The notes below the pieces were generated by a model that worked only from the letters and a program-made list of their open reading frames with translations, made no database searches and was not told the DNA's origin. A program made the translations under genes and the position numbers. A stretch of 64,000 nt of DNA from Desulfitobacterium metallireducens DSM 15288. GTDB taxonomy: Bacteria; Bacillota; Desulfitobacteriia; Desulfitobacteriales; Desulfitobacteriaceae. Below are positions 16,845 to 55,323 of the stretch, piece by piece (the first letter of the stretch is position 1; the number at the start of each line of letters is the position of its first letter). The stretch lies in contig NZ_CP007032.1 in assembly GCF_000231405.2 (NCBI RefSeq), positions 496,001 through 560,000 of the forward strand. Reading direction: 5' to 3'.

Positions 16845-17045
16845 AGAAAAAACCCCATTTGGGGTTAATGTCTTGCATAACAAACCAAAGGGTATGGTTT
16901 GCTTTTTGCCCCCTTTCAACGCTTACGAGGTTAGCTGTCGGGTTCGGATTGAAAGGAATTTACCCGTCACCTTTCGGTGATTCACCCCATTTGGCTAATC
17001 GATAGCCGGACTTGGTTCCCCCGCTTCCATAGAATTCAGCGCTGG
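16845..17045 (-). promoter_or_regulatory. c-di-AMP (ydaO-yuaA) riboswitch with terminator, kup leader
   Basis: On the minus strand the leader contains the hallmark segments of the ydaO class in order: GCGGGGGAACCAA, GGGGTGAATC, and CCGAACCCGACAGC followed by TAACCTCGTAAGC. The closing helix pairs CAGCGCT (about 17039-17045) with AGCGTTG (about 16917-16923). Downstream an AAACCA/TGGTTT hairpin and then an intrinsic terminator, AACCCC-AAAT-GGGGTT plus T-tract (16851-16866), form the expression platform. A -10-like TATTAT is seen near 17060-17068. Confidence 0.9.
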
Positions 17046-17244
17046 CTATATTTAACTTAAACTATAATAATCCCTATATATTAGATTGTATAGCACCAAA
17101 TTTGGGCAGATACTTTTTATATTCTCCAATAAGGCCTATATTTTACTGTAGTTCGTTTGATTATTAACAACATGCGCTATATCTTCATTTTTCTACAAAA
17201 TCCTCGACTTTTGTGTTAGAGTCTTAAACAATTTGAATACTAAG

Positions 17245-17289: not shown

Positions 17290-17555
17290 TAACCTCACTT
17301 TTAATGGTGAGGTAGAGGCGCGGCTTTCAACAGTCTTTAGTAGAGTTTGAGATGCGGAGAAACTAAGGAGAAGGGTAGGTCGCCGAAGTTAATAATATTC
17401 TCAGTATTATTAGCTGGGTCTGTAGTTAAGAGCTACAGGACTGTCTCAATAAACTACCCAGTTTATTGAGTTGAGCTATCTCATTTGGGATTAAAAGGGG
17501 GAATATAGGGTAACTATACAAATAGAGACCTGAGTTCATCTCAGGTCTTTTTTTA
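17290..17555 (+). promoter_or_regulatory. Lysine riboswitch (L box) with terminator
   Basis: Conserved lysine-riboswitch blocks are present in order: GAGGTAGAGGCGC, CTTTAGTAGAG, GGAGAA and AAGGGTAGGTCGCCGAAG, TAGCTGGGTCTG and AGGACTGTCTC. They are followed by an intrinsic terminator with stem AGACCTGAG/CTCAGGTCT and seven T (17526-17555), directly before the substrate-binding protein gene. Lysine binding should stop transcription, marking the downstream importer as a lysine transporter. Confidence 0.88.
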
Positions 17556-41499: not shown

Positions 41500-41556
41500 G
41501 TATACATTGTTTTTTCCTAAAACGTCTAGACAATCGCTCGGAATATAGAGTAGAAT
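41500..41556 (+). promoter_or_regulatory. GTATAC-type promoter, hutP-like gene
   Basis: GTATACATTGTTTT (from 41500), TAGACA at 41527-41532 and TAGAAT at 41551-41556. Distances match the other three members of the set. Confidence 0.5.
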
Positions 41557-41576
41557 GAAACATCATTAGGCAATGG

Positions 41577-41626
41577 CGCCGTACAACCCCTGGGTTTCCA
41601 GGGAATTGTACGGCGTTTTATTTTTA
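41577..41626 (+). terminator. Leader terminator with GCAATGGCGC box, hutP-like gene
   Basis: Stem CGCCGTACAA/TTGTACGGCG continuing to CCCTGG/CCAGGG, loop GTTT, then T-tract. GCAATGGCGC (41570-41579) overlaps its base. Only some 15-20 leader bases precede it, so the hutP-like gene is itself attenuated. Confidence 0.75.
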
Positions 41627-41640
41627 AGGGGGCTTTATTT

Positions 41641-42081
41641 ATGAAAGAACGTAGTGATAATTATGGGGTTAGGCCTTCTTTGGAACGAGAGGCACTCTTC
41701 CTTGTTTTAACAGATACTCGAGAAAAAGAAAATGAGGTAAAACAGAAGCTTATAGCTGAGAATCTAAATTGTGCAGTTACTGAAATTGGAGGGACGGTAG
41801 CAACACTTCAGCCTACAGGAAAACTCACTCATTCCGTTATCTCGGCTGCCCTGAATACGGGAGTGATCAAAAAAGACCCCAAAGCAATTCATGCAGTAGT
41901 CCATGCAACGCTTGAAGCCACTAATAGCATTTTCGTGCATACCAATAGCAATGCCAGTTTTGCCCTAAAGATTGCGATGGTGACTGATAATGATTGGATT
42001 GCAATAGCCATATTTGGGCGTACTTCTGTAAATATTCTTTCTGAACATTGTCGGGTGGGGCTAGGGTACATGCATTTGTGA
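41641..42081 (+). CDS. hutP: HutP-family RNA-binding antiterminator
   Basis: 146 residues, about the length of B. subtilis HutP (148-151). Matching features are IHAVVHATLEATNS with H84, H88 and E92 (HutP H-A-x-x-H-A-T-x-E, which binds L-histidine and Mg), DWIAIAIFGRT (118-128; HutP DWIAVSLYGT) and a C-terminal GLGYMHL with H145. HutP hexamers, when bound to histidine, grip NAG-repeat RNA and destabilise a terminator in the hut leader. No hut catabolic genes are near; the neighbours are an amino-acid importer, Amt and PII genes. The N-terminus differs from the Bacillus protein. Ligand (histidine or another amino acid) is open. AAGGGGGC precedes the ATG. Confidence 0.82.
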   Translation: MKERSDNYGVRPSLEREALFLVLTDTREKENEVKQKLIAENLNCAVTEIGGTVATLQPTGKLTHSVISAALNTGVIKKDPKAIHAVVHATLEATNSIFVHTNSNASFALKIAMVTDNDWIAIAIFGRTSVNILSEHCRVGLGYMHL

Positions 42082-42190
42082 GTATACAGTATTCTTTAGT
42101 AGAATGGCTTGCTGTGTTATAGCGTAAATGCTAGATTTAAGCTACTATACTTTAATTTACGTTTATAAGAGGCTAGTAGGAGGAAAGACC
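42082..42190 (+). promoter_or_regulatory. GTATAC element and NAG-rich leader before amino-acid importer
   Basis: GTATACAGTATTC at 42082-42094 belongs to the same element family. Possible -10 boxes are TAGATT (42133, distance 51) or TATACT (42146). The short leader is rich in TAG/AAG triplets (CTAGATTTAAG, AAGAGGCTAGTAGGAGG) but has no terminator hairpin. Confidence 0.4.
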
Positions 42191-42191
42191 A

Positions 42192-42917
42192 GTGATTGAA
42201 CTCGAAGGGTTGCATAAACATTTTGGCTCATTACATGTACTAAAAGGGATCGATCTTAAGGTCGGATCGGGAGAAAAGTTAGTGGTGATCGGTCCCAGTG
42301 GTTCAGGTAAGAGTACCCTTATACGCTGTATGAATCTATTAGAAAAGCCTAGCTCAGGCAAGGTTACAGTTGATGGGGTGGAAATCACGGCTCATAAAGC
42401 TCCGATTGCTAAAATCCGTCAATCTGTGGCTATGGTTTTTCAACAATTTAATCTCTATCCACATAAAACGGTTTTAGAAAATCTTACTCTTGCCCCTACT
42501 TTAATTAAAAAAATTCCTAAAGATGAGGCAGAAGAGTCTGGATTGGCCTTTTTGGATCGAGTCGGCTTAAAGCAAAAGGCAGACGCTTATCCATCTCAGC
42601 TTTCTGGTGGACAGCAGCAACGGGTCGCAATCGCGAGAGCATTGAATATGCGGCCAAAAATTATGCTCTTTGATGAACCTACCTCTGCTTTGGATCCAGA
42701 AATGATCCAAGAGGTCTTGGACGTCATGGTTGATTTAGCTCATGAAGGAATCACCATGGTTGTGGTTACCCATGAAATGGGATTTGCCCGGCAAGTTGCT
42801 GACCGCGTGGTGTTCATGGATGATGGACAAATCTTAGAACAGGGGACCCCAGAACATTTCTTTGCAAATCCAACGCATGAACGGACTAAACAATTTTTAA
42901 GCCGGATTATTCGTTAG
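42192..42917 (+). CDS. glnQ: Polar amino-acid ABC importer ATPase (GlnQ type)
   Basis: 241 residues. Walker A GPSGSGKS (about 35), Q-loop FQQFNLY, signature LSGGQQQR (about 137), Walker [13 protein letters not shown] and [11 protein letters not shown] 42192 follows AGGAGGAAAG. First gene of a four-gene importer (ATPase, binding protein, two permeases) directly downstream of the HutP-like gene, which may control it. Substrate is probably glutamine, glutamate or aspartate by family resemblance. Confidence 0.9.
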
Positions 42918-42952
42918 ACCCAATTAGAAGAAAGAATAAAGGAGGTTTTTTT

Positions 42953-43771
42953 ATGAAGAAGTTTGGAGTTTTAATGATGAGTGCTTTGTTGGTTGGAAGC
43001 CTGTTAGCAGGGTGTGGTTCGAATACTGCAACCCCTTCAGGATCAAGCAGTGCTGATTCCGGGGTTTCATCTGATGTCAAAGCGATCAAGGATAGCGGTG
43101 TATTAAAGGTTGGGGTTAAAGTTGATGTACCTAAGTTTGGCTATAAAGATCCCAAAACGAGCAAAATTGAGGGGTTTGAAATCGATCTAGCCCATGAAAT
43201 GGCTAAGAAAATTGTTGGAGATCCAGAAAAAGTTGAGTTTACGGCAGTTACGGCAAAAACGCGGGGTCCGCTCCTCGATAATGGTAACGTGAATATGGAT
43301 ATCTCGACATTTACGATTACGGAAGAACGTAAAAATAGCTACAACTTCAGTGACCCCTACTATACAGACGGTGTAGGCTTACTCGTTAAAAAGGCTTCTG
43401 GGGCCCAAGGGTTGAAAGATCTAGACGGAAAGAAAATTGGGGTGGCTCAGAGCTCAACTAGTAAAAAGGCAGTTCAAGAAGAGGCTGATAAATTAGGAAT
43501 TAAAATTACGTTCCAAGAATTTGCAACTTATCCGGAAATTAAAGCCGCTTTAGATTCAGGACGGGTAGATGCGTTCTCCGTTGACCGCTCGATTCTCTTT
43601 GGTTACCTGGATGATTCTACAGCTCTGTTACCTGATAAGTTTAGCCCCCAAGAATATGGTATTGCGACTAAAAAGGGCAATGATGGACTAGCAAAGATTG
43701 TAAATGATACAGTGGGTGAGCTCAAAAAATCCGGTGATATTGATAAACTTATTAAGAAGTGGGGTCTGTAA
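42953..43771 (+). CDS. Polar amino-acid-binding lipoprotein
   Basis: 272 residues. Signal peptide with lipobox LAGC (Cys21), Ser-rich tether, then a family 3 binding domain: VGVKVDVPKFGYKDP, IEGFEIDLAHEMAKKI and NMDISTFTITEERKNSYNFS. The resemblance is to glutamate/aspartate/glutamine receptors such as PEB1a and GlnH. It delivers ligand to the two permeases encoded next. AAAGGAGG precedes ATG 42953. Confidence 0.88.
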   Translation: MKKFGVLMMSALLVGSLLAGCGSNTATPSGSSSADSGVSSDVKAIKDSGVLKVGVKVDVPKFGYKDPKTSKIEGFEIDLAHEMAKKIVGDPEKVEFTAVTAKTRGPLLDNGNVNMDISTFTITEERKNSYNFSDPYYTDGVGLLVKKASGAQGLKDLDGKKIGVAQSSTSKKAVQEEADKLGIKITFQEFATYPEIKAALDSGRVDAFSVDRSILFGYLDDSTALLPDKFSPQEYGIATKKGNDGLAKIVNDTVGELKKSGDIDKLIKKWGL

Positions 43772-43773
43772 AC

Positions 43774-44445
43774 GTGGTTGGACCATTTGCCTGGTTTAAA
43801 TGGCAAGCACTCTTCCAAGATTGGCGTATTTTTGCAGAGGGATTTGGCAATACCCTATTAGCCTCTGTCCTAGCACTCGCTCTAGCTTTGGTTTTAGGCA
43901 TCGTGTTTGGGGTGTTGGGAACGACGCATAATAAGATTTTCAAGGCCGTAAACCGTGTGTACGTTGAATTTATTCAAAATACTCCTCTGGTCATTCAAGT
44001 CTTCTTTGTCTATAACGGATTACCGCATTTGGGAATTATGCTTCCGGTTTTAACGGTCGGGGTATTGGGTGTAGGAATCTATCATGGAGCCTATATTGCG
44101 GAAGTAGTAAGAGCCGGCATTGAATCGATTCATCGTGGGCAGATGGAAGCCGCTTTATCCCAAGGGTTTTCTTTTTGGGAAGCGATGCGGTATATCATTT
44201 TACCTCAGGCTGCTCAGGTCGTTTTACCTCCTCTCACGAATCAAGCTGTGAGTTTGATTAAGAATACCTCCGTCCTAGCCATGGTTGCTGGAGGAGAATT
44301 GATGTATCATGCAGATTCATGGTCTGCGGATAACCTTTATTATGGTCCAGCTTATGTGACGGTAGGATTGCTTTATCTTGCCTTATGCTTCCCCTTAGCC
44401 CAATTTGCGCGACATCTGGAGCGTAAGACGGAGGTGTCGATGTAA
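43774..44445 (+). CDS. Polar amino-acid ABC importer permease 1
   Basis: About 223 residues, five spans, HisM/GlnP family: [40 protein letters not shown], and EAA loop [20 protein letters not shown] (about 128-147). GTG 43774 is preferred; the longer frame from 43759 overlaps the binding-protein stop. It overlaps the second permease start by 1 base (TAATG). The two permeases should form a heterodimer. Confidence 0.88.
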
Positions 44446-45092
44446 TGCAGGAAGTATTTCAGCCTTATGTCTTCCGCTTTTTAGGGCAAGGGTTAGTTAC
44501 GACGCTTTACCTAGCGTTCATGACGATTCTGTTTAGCTTTATTTTTGGGACAATCCTAGGTATTGCTCGTTATTCTCAAAAACCTATTATCTCTCAGATT
44601 GCTGCTGTCTATGTTGAGATCGTCCGTAACATTCCTTTGCTTTTGTTCATCTTAGTGATGCGCTTTGCGACAACCCTAAAGCCGCTAAATTCTGGAATAT
44701 TGGCGATGACGATTTTTACTTCAGCTATCATTGCCGAAATTGTACGGGGTGGTTTGAAATCAATCAGTAAGGGCCAGTGGGAAGCCGCTAAATCACAAGG
44801 GTTCTCGTATGTACAGACCTTGTTTCACATTGTCTTGCCCCAAGCGCTGAGTAAGATGATTCCTCCATTGGTTTCTCAGTTTATTACGGTAATTAAGGAT
44901 ACTTCTTTTGTCTGGGCTGTAGGCGTAGAGGAGCTGACAGGGAAAGGTTTAATCATTATGGGACAGTTCGGATCAACCGCACAAGTGTTTACCCTGTTCG
45001 GAATGATTGCCTTAACTTACTTTGTCATAAACTATGTGTTATCTGTTTTCGCACGAAATCAACAGCGTAAGGCTATCTATCAGAGTTACTAA
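44445..45092 (+). CDS. Polar amino-acid ABC importer permease 2
   Basis: 215 residues, HisM/GlnP family: [37 protein letters not shown] and EAA loop [20 protein letters not shown] (about 107-126). Partner of the preceding permease. The operon ends at a strong hairpin (45117-45157). Confidence 0.9.
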
Positions 45093-45738: not shown

Positions 45739-45825
45739 AGTGAATATCCATTAAGAGAAACGGTTACATGACTGGCGGAAATATTGTAGACTTAACTACG
45801 ATGAAGTGTAACTGGAGAAATGCCG

Positions 45826-45883
45826 ACCGCCTGGGCGATTATTTACAGGAATGTAAAATAATCGTTCAGGCGGTTTTTTATTT
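45826..45883 (+). terminator. Leader attenuator upstream of pflB
   Basis: A long stem ACCGCCTGGGCGATTATTT paired with AAATAATCGTTCAGGCGGT (two wobbles, one bulge), 5-base loop and T-tract. It lies between the promoter and the start of pflB, so pflB is probably controlled by read-through. Confidence 0.75.
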
Positions 45884-45923
45884 TCCTACACAAAAGCGAA
45901 ATGTGAAGGGGATGCACAAAGAG

Positions 45924-48194
45924 ATGGAACAAAAGACGATGCAGGAACTGAAAGAAAAGCAACAAAAGAATGAATGGCAGGGTTTCAAAGAGGGTTCATG
46001 GCAAACAAAAATTGATGTCCGTGACTTTATTCAAACGAACTATGCACCTTATTTAGGTGATGATCAATTTCTGAGTACTAAAACGGAGAAAACGGCGATT
46101 CTCTGGGCACAATGTCTAGAGTATTTGAAAAAAGAAAGAGATAATGGTGGCGTGTTAAGTATCGACACGAACCGGGTGACAGGAATCAATGCTTATGGCC
46201 CAGGATATATCCAACAGGAGAATGAAGTTATCGTGGGTCTTCAGACAGAGAAACCGCTAGAACGTTCTGTTAATCCTTTTGGGGGCTTAAGAATGGCCAA
46301 ACAGTCCTGTGAAGCGTATGGCGTTCATATGGACAAAACACAGGAAGAATTTTTTAGAAAATATCGGAAGACCCATAATGATGGTGTTTTTGATGCGTAT
46401 ACCCCAGAAATGCGTAAAGCGCGAGGCCATGCTATTATCACGGGATTGCCGGATGCCTACGGGCGGGGAAGAATCATAGGGGATTATCGGAGAGTGGCCT
46501 TATACGGAGTGAACACTTTAATTGAAGCCAAGGAAGCGGATTTATTGGTCTTGGTCAATGTTCCCATGAATGAGGAAAACATTCGTTTGCGTGAAGAAAT
46601 CAGAGAACAAATTAAAGCGCTCCATGAGCTTATCGAGATGGGGACAACGTATGGTTTTGATATTACTCGCCCGGCTAAGAATGCTCGAGAAGCTTTTCAA
46701 TGGGTGTATTTTGCTTATCTTGCTACAATCAAGGCAGAAAATGGCGCAGCGATGTCACTGGGAAGAGTAAGCACTTTCCTTGATATTTATGTAGAACGGG
46801 ATTTAGCACAGGGGGTTTTAACAGAGAAGGAAGCCCAAGAAATTGTGGATCAATTTATTATTAAGTTAAGGATGGCTCGTGAACTTCGGACTCCTGAATA
46901 TGAAGAACTTTTTGCGGGAGATCCCATGTGGATTACGGAATCTATTGGGGGGATGGGAGTAGATGGTCGGACCCTAGTCACCAAGAATTCCTATCGTTTT
47001 CTGCATACCCTCTATAATTTAGGTCCGGCTCCTGAACCGAACTTGACGGTTTTATGGTCAAAGGATTTGCCTGAGACGTTTAAACAATTTTGCGCAAAGG
47101 CTTCAATCGATACCAGTTCTATACAGTATGAAAATGATGATTTGATGCGTGAGTATTTCGAGGATGATTACGGGATTGCCTGCTGTGTCTCCGCAATGAA
47201 GATCGGCTATCAAATGCAGTTATTCGGCGCCCGAACAAATCTCGCTAAGATATTACTCCTCGCTATCAATGGCGGTAAAGATGAAAAAACAGGGGAACAA
47301 TTAACACCGGAAATTCCTGCTATTGAGGATGAGGTGCTCGATTTCGATAAAGTAAAAGAGAACTTTGATTTTCTTCAAGATTGGGTTTCTAAACTTTACA
47401 TTAACACGCTCAATATTATTCATTACATGCATGACAAATATGCCTATGAAAGAATACAAATGGCCTTGCATGACAGTAACGTGGAACGGGTTATGGCTCT
47501 TGGAATTGCTGGCTTTTCAGTGGTTGTAGATTCCTTTAGCGCCATCAAGTATGCTAAAGTCTATCCGATTCGCAATGAACAAGGGATCGCCATCGACTTT
47601 AGGATTGAAGGCGATTTCCCGAAATACGGAAATGATGATGATCGTGTCGACCAAATGGGCGTGGATCTCGTGAAAAGTTTTAGTGAAAATTTAAAGAAAT
47701 ACCCTGCTCACCGCCATGCTAAGCATACGCTTTCAGTTTTGACTATTACGTCAAATGTCATGTATGGTAAGAAAACAGGGGCTACACCGGATGGACGTAA
47801 AAAAGGAGAACCCTTTGCACCTGGGGCGAACCCGATGCATGGACGCGATACAAATGGCGCTTTAGCAAGCTTGAACTCCGTTGCGAAGCTCCCTTATGAA
47901 GCATGTATGGATGGAATTAGTAATACGTTCTCAATCGTACCTAAAGCTTTAGGTAAAGCACCAGAAGAGCGGGAGAAAAACCTAATCCAGCTTTTTGATG
48001 GCTACTTTGGTCAACGGGCTCACCACTTAAATGTTAATGTCATGGACCGAGCCTTATTAGAGAAGGCTATGGAAGAACCTGAAAACTATCCTCAGTTAAC
48101 GGTCAGGGTCTCCGGTTATGCTGTGCATTTTACGAAGCTCAGTAAGGCGCATCAACTTGAGGTTATTAAGAGAACGTTTTTCGAAAGAATGTAA
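45924..48194 (+). CDS. pflB: Pyruvate formate-lyase (formate C-acetyltransferase)
   Basis: About 756 residues. Active-site pair in [13 protein letters not shown] (Cys-Cys) and the glycyl-radical site RVSGYAVHF near the C-terminus identify true PFL, together with [17 protein letters not shown]. It splits pyruvate and CoA into acetyl-CoA and formate without oxygen, once the radical is made by PflA. An open frame runs back to 45768, but that includes the leader hairpin, so the start is ATG 45924 (or 45912, which touches AAGGGG). pflA follows after 360 bases holding a decayed gene. Confidence 0.95.
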
Positions 48195-48556: not shown

Positions 48557-49282
48557 ATGAAGGGAAGAATTCATTCGATCGAGAGTTTTGGAACGGTGGA
48601 CGGACCTGGAATTCGGTGTGTGGTTTTCCTTCAAGGGTGTTCTCTGAGATGTCGGTATTGTCATAATCCGGATACTTGGGATTGTCAGGGTGGACAAGAA
48701 ATCGATTCTGAGGAGGTCGTTCAAAAAGTACTTCGCTTTAAATCCTATTTTGGGGAAAAGGGAGGAATCACTTTATCAGGGGGTGAGCCTCTACTTCAGC
48801 CCGACTTCGCTGCGGCGATTTTAAAGAGATGTAAAGAAGAGGGGATTCATACTGCTGTGGATACTTCAGGTTGGGTGGATATTTCTGCATTGGATAAGGT
48901 TCTCCCCTATACTGATCTCTTCCTCTTAGACATTAAGGGTTTAAATGAAGAAAACTATACGTGGATAACGGGCCAGAAGACTCAAAAATTCCATGAGGCT
49001 CTTCAGTTGATTAAAGAAAAGAAAACGGATCTTTGGTTACGGTATGTTGTTTTACCTGGGATCAATGATACGGATCAGCATCGAGAAAAGTTAAAAGAGT
49101 TTGTTCAGGCTTTATCGCCACAAGTTCAAAATGTTGAGTTGCTTCCTTACCATCCCTTAGGAATTCACAAATGGGAAAAACTTGGTTTGAAGTACACGCT
49201 GTATGATCTTGAAATACCAAACCAAGATAAGATCGATCAGTTTTCTCATGATGTATACAGTGTTTTTAAAAGAAATGACTAG
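48557..49282 (+). CDS. pflA: Pyruvate formate-lyase activating enzyme
   Basis: 241 residues, radical SAM enzyme. Cluster motif CSLRCRYCHNPDTW (CxxxCxxC, about 30-37) after SFGTVDGPGIRCVVFLQG, then SGGEPLLQPDF and DTSGW, as in PflA. It uses SAM and a 4Fe-4S cluster to form the glycyl radical on PflB. AAAGGAGG precedes ATG 48557. A GTATAC element for the next unit lies inside its last codons. Confidence 0.95.
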   Translation: MKGRIHSIESFGTVDGPGIRCVVFLQGCSLRCRYCHNPDTWDCQGGQEIDSEEVVQKVLRFKSYFGEKGGITLSGGEPLLQPDFAAAILKRCKEEGIHTAVDTSGWVDISALDKVLPYTDLFLLDIKGLNEENYTWITGQKTQKFHEALQLIKEKKTDLWLRYVVLPGINDTDQHREKLKEFVQALSPQVQNVELLPYHPLGIHKWEKLGLKYTLYDLEIPNQDKIDQFSHDVYSVFKRND

Positions 49283-49308: not shown

Positions 49309-49365
49309 AAGGTCATCGAAAGCGAAGTGATATTCACTTCCTGCGAATTCTCAAGAATGGCAAAG

Positions 49366-49418
49366 GCGCCATATAGTTATCTGGGATGACCAGATAATTA
49401 TATGGCGCTATTTTTTTT
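49366..49418 (+). terminator. First leader terminator of amt1, with GCAAAGGCGC box
   Basis: A 19-bp stem GCGCCATATAGTTATCTGG with one wobble, loop GATGA, then TATTTTTTTT. GCAAAGGCGC at 49360-49369 overlaps the base. A small GAAGTGA/TCACTTC hairpin (49324-49340) lies before it. Confidence 0.85.
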
Positions 49419-49463
49419 GCTAATTTTACGAGGGGTTTAGTTGAGAAGCGTGTTCAGGTGAAG

Positions 49464-49502
49464 TTTAGAGTTTTAGAGTTTTAGAGTTTTAGAGTTTTAG
49501 AG
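49464..49502 (+). repeat. Tandem TTTTAGAG repeats in the amt1 leader
   Basis: Four perfect TTTTAGAG units preceded by one TTTAGAG unit, 39 bases, in the RNA between two leader terminators. Each gives UAG and GAG triplets with 8-base periodicity; further AAG/CAG/GAG triplets flank it (GAGAAGCG, TTCAGGTGAAG before; CGAAGTCGAGAG after). Confidence 0.9.
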
Positions 49503-49587
49503 TTCGAAGTCGAGAGTAAAATCTGTGACCAAGGTCACTTCATATGAGTGGGCACCAAACTATTGTTTGGAGAGTAAAAAGTGATTA

Positions 49588-49634
49588 AGAGAGCCCTTAT
49601 CCGTAAGGATAGGTGTGCTCTCTTCTTTTTTAAA
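49588..49634 (+). terminator. Second leader terminator of amt1
   Basis: AGAGAGC pairs with GCTCTCT around an inner hairpin CCTTA-TCCG-TAAGG, then TCTTTTTT. Upstream are a CCAAAC-TATT-GTTTGG hairpin and AGTGATTAAGAGAGCC, both repeated in the 55 kb leader. Confidence 0.75.
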
Positions 49635-49746: not shown

Positions 49747-51138
49747 ATGAAAAAATTATGGACTTTATTAATTGCTCTTATAAGTATGTTAGCGCTTCCT
49801 GCATCGGTTTTTGCGGCAGACGGCTCGGTGATTGATACCGGGGATACCAGTTTTATTATTATTTCAACGGCTTTGGTTCTTCTGATGACTCCAGGTTTGG
49901 CTCTTTTCTATGGGGGTATGGTCAGAAAGAAAAATGTATTAAGTACGACCATGCATAGTTTTATTATTATGGCTTTAGCCTCAGTTCAATGGGTTGTAAT
50001 TGGTTTTACGTTAGCCTTTGGTCCAGATCAAAGCGGTTTCATCGGTGCTTTAAACTGGTTGGGCCTTTCCGGAGTAGGTATTGATCCTAATCCTGATTAT
50101 GCAGCAACGATTCCCTTTATTGTCTTTATGGCTTTTCAAATGATGTTTGCCATCATTACACCCGCTTTAATTACAGGTTCGATTGCGGAACGGATGAGAT
50201 TTCCCGCTTTCCTGGTCTTTATTCTCTTATGGATGACCTTCGTTTATGACCCCTTGGCTCACTGGGTTTGGGGCGTTGGCGGATTCCTTCGTACGATGGG
50301 AGCTCTCGACTTTGCAGGAGGTACAGTTGTTCATATTAGTTCCGGTGTTTCCGGTTTAGTTGCGGCGTTAGTCCTGGGTAAACGTAAGGGATATGGGAAA
50401 GAACCGATGGCTCCTCATCAAATTCCAATGACGGTTTTGGGGGCAGGGTTACTTTGGTTCGGCTGGTTTGGTTTTAATGCTGGGAGTGCTCTCGGAGCGA
50501 ATGGCTTAGCAGGAATCGCTCTTGTCACAACAAATACCTCGGCAGCGATAGGAGCTTTAGCTTGGATGGCTGCAGAATGGCTCCATCGCGGGAAACCAAC
50601 GGTTCTTGGGGCGGCAAGTGGTGCAGTCGCTGGTTTAGTTGCTATTACACCTGGCGCAGGATTTGTTACTCCAATGGCATCTATCCTAATCGGTTTGGTC
50701 GGAGGAATTATCTGCTACTTTGCAGTGAGCGTTCTTAAAGCGAAATTAGGTTATGATGATGCACTCGATGCCTTTGGCTGCCATGGCATTGGCGGAATCT
50801 GGGGGGCTTTAGCAACAGGGTTATTTGCGACCAAAACAATCAATCCTGCCGGAGCTGATGGCCTTTTGTATGGCAATCCTACACAATTAGGAATTCAAGC
50901 TTTAAGTGTTGTTGTCACGATTGTTCTTGCAGCTGCTGCAACTTTCGTCATTCTAAAAGGGGTTGGAGTATTTATAAAATTACGGGCGACTGATGAAGAA
51001 GAGGAGACAGGATTGGATTTGTCCATGCATGGAGAAGAAGCGTATTCAGATTTTATTGGCAATGAAATTTTGTTATCCGTAGTTCCTTCTAAATCAATGG
51101 CTTTTAATCCAATTATCAGTAAACAACCGTCTCATTAA
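49747..51138 (+). CDS. amt: Ammonium transporter, signal-peptide type (Amt1)
   Basis: 463 residues. A cleavable-looking signal peptide (ends near VFAADG, about residue 24) then eleven spans of the Amt/Mep family. The channel shows QMMFAIITPAL, GGTVVHISSGVSGLVAAL (first pore His) and DAFGCHGIGGIWG (second pore His), so the twin-His site is intact. It passes ammonium into the cell and is normally plugged by a PII protein, whose gene follows 50 bases later. The leader has two terminators and NAG repeats. Confidence 0.95.
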   Translation: MKKLWTLLIALISMLALPASVFAADGSVIDTGDTSFIIISTALVLLMTPGLALFYGGMVRKKNVLSTTMHSFIIMALASVQWVVIGFTLAFGPDQSGFIGALNWLGLSGVGIDPNPDYAATIPFIVFMAFQMMFAIITPALITGSIAERMRFPAFLVFILLWMTFVYDPLAHWVWGVGGFLRTMGALDFAGGTVVHISSGVSGLVAALVLGKRKGYGKEPMAPHQIPMTVLGAGLLWFGWFGFNAGSALGANGLAGIALVTTNTSAAIGALAWMAAEWLHRGKPTVLGAASGAVAGLVAITPGAGFVTPMASILIGLVGGIICYFAVSVLKAKLGYDDALDAFGCHGIGGIWGALATGLFATKTINPAGADGLLYGNPTQLGIQALSVVVTIVLAAAATFVILKGVGVFIKLRATDEEEETGLDLSMHGEEAYSDFIGNEILLSVVPSKSMAFNPIISKQPSH

Positions 51139-51190: not shown

Positions 51191-51529
51191 ATGAAAAAAA
51201 TAGAAGCGATTATCCGCCCGGGTAAGTTAGATCATGTTAAAGATGCCTTAGATCAATGTGGGGTGAAAGGACTAACGGTTAGCCAAGTCATCGGAGCGGG
51301 AAACCAGAAGGGACATACTCAGGTTTATCGCGGAGTAGAGTATTCGACCTATTTGCTTCCGAAAGTGAAAATCGAAGTCGTTGTATCCAATAACAACTGC
51401 GATGAAGTCATAAAAGTTCTTACTGAAGCCGCTAGGACAGGAGAAATTGGAGATGGAAAGATTTTTGTTACCTCAATCGAAAATGTCATAAAAATTAGAA
51501 CAGGGGAAACTGGAGAACAAGCGCTCTAG
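51191..51529 (+). CDS. glnB: Nitrogen regulatory PII protein with Tyr51
   Basis: 112 residues, trimeric [23 protein letters not shown] start, T-loop about 37-55 with Tyr51 in RGVEYSTY, B-loop TGEIGDGKIFV and C-loop KIRTGETGEQAL. It binds ATP/ADP and 2-oxoglutarate and should gate Amt1, encoded just upstream. Tyr51 is the uridylylation site in proteobacteria; whether it is modified here is not known. The ribosome site is AGAGGGAGTGG. Confidence 0.95.
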   Translation: MKKIEAIIRPGKLDHVKDALDQCGVKGLTVSQVIGAGNQKGHTQVYRGVEYSTYLLPKVKIEVVVSNNNCDEVIKVLTEAARTGEIGDGKIFVTSIENVIKIRTGETGEQAL

Positions 51530-51566: not shown

Positions 51567-51623
51567 GTATACAGTATTCAAAAGTTCAAACCTATAGACG
51601 CCTCTTTGAGCTCGTGCTATAAT
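51567..51623 (+). promoter_or_regulatory. GTATAC-type promoter of amt2
   Basis: GTATACAGTATTC at 51567-51579, TAGACG at 51595-51600 and TATAAT at 51618-51623 with a 17-base spacer. Confidence 0.6.
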
Positions 51624-51661
51624 CAAAATCGCTAAGACATTTATGATTTAGTGAGAGCAAT

Positions 51662-51708
51662 GGGGCTCTAGAAAAGCATTCGCTTTTTTAGAGCCTCTTT
51701 TTGTTTTT
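51662..51708 (+). terminator. Leader terminator of amt2, with GCAATGGGGC box
   Basis: A 16-bp stem GGGGCTCTAGAAAAGC paired with GCTTTTTTAGAGCCTC (two wobbles), loop ATTC, then TTTTTG. GCAATGGGGC at 51657-51666 overlaps its base. It precedes the gene, so it is an attenuator. Confidence 0.8.
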
Positions 51709-54992: not shown

Positions 54993-55112
54993 GTATACAG
55001 AAGAAAATTACAATTCGTGGTTTACCACGATATATATTAGGCACAAATCTTAAGGATTTGAGTGAAGTAGTGATAAAGAGAGCCATTTCAAAATGAAGGG
55101 CTCTTTTTCTTA
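54993..55112 (+). promoter_or_regulatory. GTATAC-containing leader with terminator, NAG-rich
   Basis: GTATACAGAAGAAAA (54993) is a weaker element copy with TATATT 40 bases on. The leader has a CAAATC-TTAAG-GATTTG hairpin (about 55043-55059), then AGTGATAAAGAGAGCC, and a terminator (AGAGCC/GGGCTCT, T-tract, 55079-55112). Hairpin and AG-rich linker match the second amt1 leader. Confidence 0.55.
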
Positions 55113-55242
55113 TTATTTAGGGAATTTCAATTCTTGTATCAGATCAGCATCTTGAGCATAAGGTGAATAAAAGTAATCAGAAGTTTTGTTATTACTCAAA
55201 GGTTTTTGGTAAAAAGTAAGGTAAGGGCTAGAAAGGAGAGAA

Positions 55243-55323
55243 ATGAGAATGTGGATTTGGATCATATTTGGTGTGCTTTCGGTCATCATATGGAATTTTA
55301 CTCCTTCGTGGTCAAAGCATTGA
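55243..55323 (+). CDS. 26-residue single-span peptide
   Basis: Start ATG 55243 with AAAGGAGAG at ideal spacing; the peptide MRMWIWIIFGVLSVIIWNFT ends in PSWSKH. It is one hydrophobic helix with a basic end. A terminator follows at 55347-55393. It is the only gene between two terminators in the 520-base stretch after pucR. The function is unknown; small membrane regulators of transporters look like this. Confidence 0.5.
   Translation: MRMWIWIIFGVLSVIIWNFTPSWSKH

Follow-up and report, generated by a model that had tools for sequence, protein, structure and literature searches.

In a family of anaerobic bacteria, a relative of HutP, the Bacillus regulator of histidine utilization, seems to have been redirected to switching on genes for nitrogenase and ammonium uptake by cancelling a stop signal in the RNA ahead of them. 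We analyzed a window of 64,000 nt from Desulfitobacterium metallireducens DSM 15288 (NZ_CP007032.1:496,001-560,000; coordinates below are window positions unless another contig or locus is named), in which a + strand gene at 41641-42081 encodes a HutP-family regulator of 146 aa that we assign to group B. It is highly probable that this paralogue is a metal/ligand-dependent antiterminator of nitrogen-acquisition operons that operates through R1, a conserved RNA of ~95 nt comprising a hairpin, three NAG triplets at an 8-nt period, and a terminator, and that in this genome it acts in trans on the ammonium transporter gene amt1.

The open reading frame is real, and the HutP membership proposed in a first-pass annotation of the sequence was borne out by the profile search that the annotation had named as one way to refute it: PF09021 (Pfam HutP) matched residues 15-144 of 146 with 134.8 bits (E = 2.7e-39), far above the gathering score of 25 bits. 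The protein is a Pfam HutP member but other than HutP proper, scoring 30.2 bits against the NF002838 equivalog, whose cut-off is 155, and sharing ~21-25% identity with HutP. Solely HutP of Geobacillus and Bacillus was relevant among solved structures related by sequence, and an AlphaFold model built with 16 sequences from the window and its relatives (pLDDT 83) has the HutP fold, its strong structural matches being HutP crystal structures only (1vea, TM 0.79-0.80, E = 8e-9). In the alignment, H84, H88, and E92 correspond to H73, H77, and E81 of B. subtilis HutP, in agreement with the ligand residues named at first; H145, named along with them, matches instead the second conserved C-terminal histidine of HutP, and the third metal histidine (presumably H138) is matched by H136. 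Both C-terminal histidines are retained, as are the DWIA and IFG strands noted earlier, and H84, H88, H136, and E92 are almost invariant across group B. The loop after HutP H77 (HGVTRGEMLLGS in HutP) is ~8 residues shorter in the window protein, so that, judging from the alignment, the side-chain pocket probably differs from that of HutP.

Across the phylum, 257 of the 398 genomes sampled encode a PF09021 protein. In a survey of 46 genomes of the family, the matches were sorted by score and match length into three classes, of which groups A and C each form one clean clade in the tree (100/100). The very long branch of group A lands among the group B rows, which blurs the A/B border, and group B as a single clade is accordingly not provable. 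Group C has the histidine ammonia-lyase gene (hutH) next downstream in most loci. The D. metallireducens genome carries two PF09021 genes, and a genome-wide search of its 3.18 Mb found no hutH/PAL-family gene, which for hutH extends to the whole genome the earlier remark that hut genes are missing nearby. Group A lacks the metal histidines. At 60 of its 61 loci it stands before a gene for chorismate mutase, with DAHP synthase often coming next; its members look like regulators of aromatic amino acid synthesis rather than of hut. Since group A apparently governs another pathway and does without the metal histidines, family membership alone leaves the mechanism unfixed.

Group A “HutP” proteins (L001-L062; e.g., 6273-6731 of L100 and C1:1961811 of the D. 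metallireducens genome) are common across the phylum, and terminator-like hairpins were seen upstream of their genes in three leaders inspected. Distant HutP homologues also lie before genes that, read by eye, look carboxyltransferase-like, methyltransferase-like, and CoA-transferase-like (L150, L151, and L152), with NAG-N5-NAG-N5-NAG just 3' of hutP in L151 and L152.

Group B hutP lies immediately 5' of nif, anf, or amt operons in most of 25 relatives, the downstream genes being nifI1-nifI2-nifH-nifD-nifK, anfH-nifI-anfDGK, or amt. The named relatives are Desulfosporosinus, Paradesulfitobacterium, and Acididesulfobacillus and, farther off, Thermosediminibacter and a Spirochaetaceae MAG. The order hutP, NAG tract and terminator, operon recurs in these loci; a NAG-rich tract comes first after hutP, followed by the conserved element that closes in the terminator. 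That homologues consistently stand beside terminator-bearing leaders in nif and amt operons sustains the original suggestion of a HutP-family antiterminator of nitrogen uptake.

Within R1, the P2 hairpin (CCAAAUC/GAUUUGG) precedes a linker that bears the NAG triplets. Of the 36 distinct linkers, 28 have three AG steps at an exact 8-nt period (NAG-N5-NAG-N5-NAG), where 0.3 would be expected from shuffles; the figure expresses conservation rather than 28 independent events because the sequences are related; 7- and 9-nt AG periods show no excess over shuffles. Bacillus subtilis HutP binds NAG triplets (PMC7430163), and the occurrence of this recognition motif in the R1 linkers supports HutP-B as the reader of R1. 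NAG counts also exceed expectation in many of the upstream tracts, where AG steps over all sites give z values of 11.8 at 8 nt and 6.5 at 16 nt. The group C hutP-hutH leaders of the same bacteria are a useful internal control for the period: NAG triplets at 7 nt precede the terminator in 5 of 10, and a 9-nt period is as frequent. The spacing of 8 nt in R1 versus 7 nt in hutP-hutH leaders counts against HutP-B as the reader, as does the absence of a NAG tract outside R1 at several sites in trans.

In a second helix, P1, GGGC on the 5' side of P2 pairs with a GCCC that also belongs to the terminator's 5' arm, so that P1 and the terminator are mutually exclusive. The third NAG shares the first terminator pairs, not P1 (alignment columns 53-55 versus 59-64). 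In an alignment fitted to P2 and the terminator, not to P1, 98.7% of cells keep P1, some of them through changes from G-C to A-U or G-U. Two-sided changes are found in 7/7 P2 pairs and 7/14 terminator pairs, and the covariation measures of P1, P2, and the terminator lie above all shuffles and all slid controls.

A covariance model of R1 was built from 18 aligned nif/anf-type copies, with window and amt types left out. It detected R1 in 33 of the 46 family genomes, every one carrying group B hutP, which amounts to 33/36 genomes with the gene and 0/10 without (Fisher P = 7e-8); the genome counts are not independent, as most relatives come from one family. Two of the genomes with hutP-B and no R1 have hutP at a contig end (G020) or truncated (G027), while the third, G005, is a real exception to the pairing and counts against HutP-B as the reader. 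The model search did not find R1 in other genomes of the order. Nitrogenase is present in G037 and G038 together with neither hutP-B nor R1, and there is no nitrogenase in the window's genome, yet hutP-B and R1 are both there. R1 thus follows hutP-B, not nif, and the same genomes led us to reject R1 as a mere part of nif operons.

It is improbable that hutP-B is just a member of the same regulon and that R1 responds to something else, either directly to a small molecule or to a different RNA-binding protein. The hairpin is aptamer-like in being compact and conserved, with invariant nucleotides, but the tracking of hutP-B rather than nif, the three NAG triplets of the linker, and the position of R1 directly 3' of hutP, where hut operons from these bacteria also have their HutP-type targets, all speak for HutP-B. 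An Rfam search of the window returned lysine, c-di-AMP, and ZTP riboswitches only, none at the leaders described here, and a permissive Rfam scan of three relatives yielded only an unrelated TwoAYGGAY and chance matches. The ZTP riboswitch (45758-45843) overlaps the listed start of a pyruvate formate-lyase-like ORF (45768-48194), whose true start must therefore lie farther downstream; the lysine riboswitch and a minus-strand c-di-AMP riboswitch stand back to back (17305-17486 and 16905-17051).

The R1 model has exactly two matches in the 3.18-Mb genome, both within the window and on the + strand. The R1 of amt1 (49544-49633) scores 47.6 bits with a model from which the window was absent. Its P1 antiterminator pairs GGGC 49550-49553 with GCCC 49593-49596, its P2 hairpin spans 49555-49570, its NAG triplets lie in 49570-49589, and its terminator occupies about 49588-49632. 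A partial transcript (49544-49597) folds as P1 plus P2, and the full-length one as P2 plus terminator. The + strand tract of UUUUAGAG repeats at 49436-49519 is, from its NAG counts and AG periodicity, a probable first landing site of HutP-B; the 123-nt stretch of the leader up to R1 contains 20 NAG versus 9.2 expected. The first NAG of this R1 stands 7 or 9 nt from the second instead of 8, a further point against HutP-B as the reader. The element lies 7.4 kb from hutP; in most relatives R1 is just 3' of hutP. Downstream on the + strand are the ORFs of the proposed target, the ammonium transporter Amt1 (49747-51138), and of a PII protein (51191-51529).

The second R1 (55033-55118; 40.8 bits, fold z -4.7), absent from the leaders listed in the first-pass annotation, has the triplets GAG-N5-UAG-N5-AAG at 55060-55078. 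A hydrophobic + strand ORF of 26 aa (MRMWIWIIFGVLSVIIWNFTPSWSKH, 55243-55323), preceded by an SD-like site and putatively encoding a small membrane peptide, has this R1 on one side and a terminator-like hairpin on the other, and may be its target. In relatives, R1 occurs in trans at nifI1-nifI2-nifHDKE (two tandem copies, L196), an alternative nitrogenase (two tandem copies, L190), amt-PII genes (L195 and L199), an SBP transporter with a nifH-like gene (L192), and a PAS/sigma-54 activator (L198). At L185-L194 it lies, after amt-glnK-CitMHS transporter genes, 5' of the gene for a protein of ~510 aa that belongs to no Pfam family, possibly a new nitrogen regulator or enzyme.

We infer that active HutP-B would bind the NAG triplets 8 nt apart in R1, at a landing site just 3' of P2 that overlaps the base of the intrinsic terminator, and that binding would keep the P1/P2 antiterminator in place and let RNA polymerase continue into the nifI-nifHDK, anf, or amt genes downstream. 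In the nif-less genome studied here, HutP-B would act in trans at two places, amt1 (49.5 kb) and the site at 55.0 kb. The opposite sign of regulation, with HutP-B promoting termination as a TRAP-like repressor, seems unlikely to us. The long, regularly spaced NAG tracts do look like TRAP targets, and many exceed the expected NAG count, but the known HutP antiterminates, and the third NAG sits not in P1 but at the terminator base, where binding should hinder the terminator.

Genes for a GlnQHP-type amino acid importer adjoin hutP on the + strand (42192-45092), and the first-pass annotation had remarked on this order. Fold and R1 scans of the hutP-glnQ intergenic region gave neither a terminator (fold z +0.6) nor an R1; we therefore rejected a direct target between the two genes, and action on the adjacent importer is not supported. 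That the protein is an ordinary histidine-sensing HutP controlling this importer is very improbable: H84, H88, E92, and H136 are retained, and importer genes adjoin hutP both in the window and at L071, where the same four precede hutP and nif follows, but the gap bears no terminator or R1 and holds a GTATACA box and a possible promoter of its own, the loop after H77 is shortened, and the neighbor in most relatives is nif or amt. Boxes of GTATACANTRTTYTT lie 5' of hutP, glnQ, amt1, and amt2 (41500-41514, 42082-42096, 49253-49267, and 51567-51581); the genome's only three exact copies are all within the window. The boxes are probably a DNA-level nitrogen operator.

Attenuator-like leaders had been noted in this region, and those at 41.57, 49.36, 49.54, and 51.65 kb do carry strong terminators, with fold z between -3.8 and -7.6. 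The ones at 41.6 and 51.7 kb, earlier listed as candidates for binding by the HutP-family protein, resemble ANTAR targets instead. On the + strand, the hutP leader terminator (41569-41622, fold z -5.6) starts with GGC-AAUGGC-GCC, the first attenuator of amt1 (49359-49421, fold z -7.6) has GGC-AAAGGC-GCC, and the amt2 leader terminator (51653-51705), which is not an R1, has GAGC-AAUGGG-GCUC. The terminators of all three leaders open with a small hairpin, overlapping the terminator in hutP and amt1, with A1 and G4 in a loop of six bases. This agrees with the second of the two tandem hexaloop hairpins (A1, G4) that precede the terminator in an ANTAR target. The sequence GGCAANGNNGCC occurs in 19 of 26 group B hutP leaders versus once in 208 kb of background strand. 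Two genes for ANTAR proteins are present in the genome, one of them immediately following glnA, and Ramesh (2012; PMC3369931) reported ANTAR targets ahead of PII, amt, and nitrogenase genes. The first hairpin of the tandem pair was not identified in the hutP, amt1, and amt2 leaders, so that ANTAR-type attenuation of these leaders is likely, not proved. With such an attenuator upstream in hutP as well as in amt1, nitrogen status would gate expression twice.

HutP proper is a hexamer whose activation depends on L-histidine and Mg2+, and the ligand of group B may possibly still be histidine. We offer only tentatively, as a doubtful extension, the idea that HutP proteins are diversified metal-chelate-sensing antiterminators, of which group B would sense, at the conserved metal site, an Mg2+-chelating metabolite of nitrogen status (2-oxoglutarate, glutamate, or glutamine), not histidine, to gate transcription of nitrogenase and amt genes.

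To our knowledge, the control of nitrogenase transcription in anaerobic Firmicutes is poorly known. If correct, our proposal describes a previously unnoticed mode of nitrogen-fixation control and adds a second protein class, beside ANTAR, to nif attenuation at Mo- and Fe-nitrogenase operons. HutP, known only from histidine utilization, would then be a general regulator that changes operons; the “HutP” label in clostridial genomes falls mostly on proteins unrelated to hut genes. R1 is in addition a defined RNA element open to in vitro work. No paper linking HutP with nif was found in the open-access literature, in which work on clostridial nif operons is silent on HutP; since the search was confined to open-access sources, an earlier report may still exist.

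The proposed system can be set beside three known ones. TRAP is an amino-acid-regulated protein that, like HutP-B in our model, reads repeated GAG/UAG triplets, but its fold and oligomer differ from those of HutP and its effect is termination. The ANTAR system, described by Ramesh (2012; PMC3369931) in passages that do not mention HutP, likewise attenuates PII, amt, and nitrogenase operons, and ANTAR-like hairpins share the leaders described here, but HutP-B and the R1 fold are different, and R1 is a separate, second attenuator. The closest likeness is to HutP of B. subtilis and Geobacillus (PF09021 and NF002838; 1wmq, 1vea, and 4ok9), with which group B shares the fold, the metal histidines, a gene placed 5' of the target terminator in most relatives, and NAG triplets before that terminator. 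Unlike HutP, group B has a shorter ligand-side loop and an identity and equivalog score that set it apart, a NAG period of 8 rather than 7, and an added P1/P2 antiterminator, and its predicted targets are nif, anf, and amt operons rather than hut.
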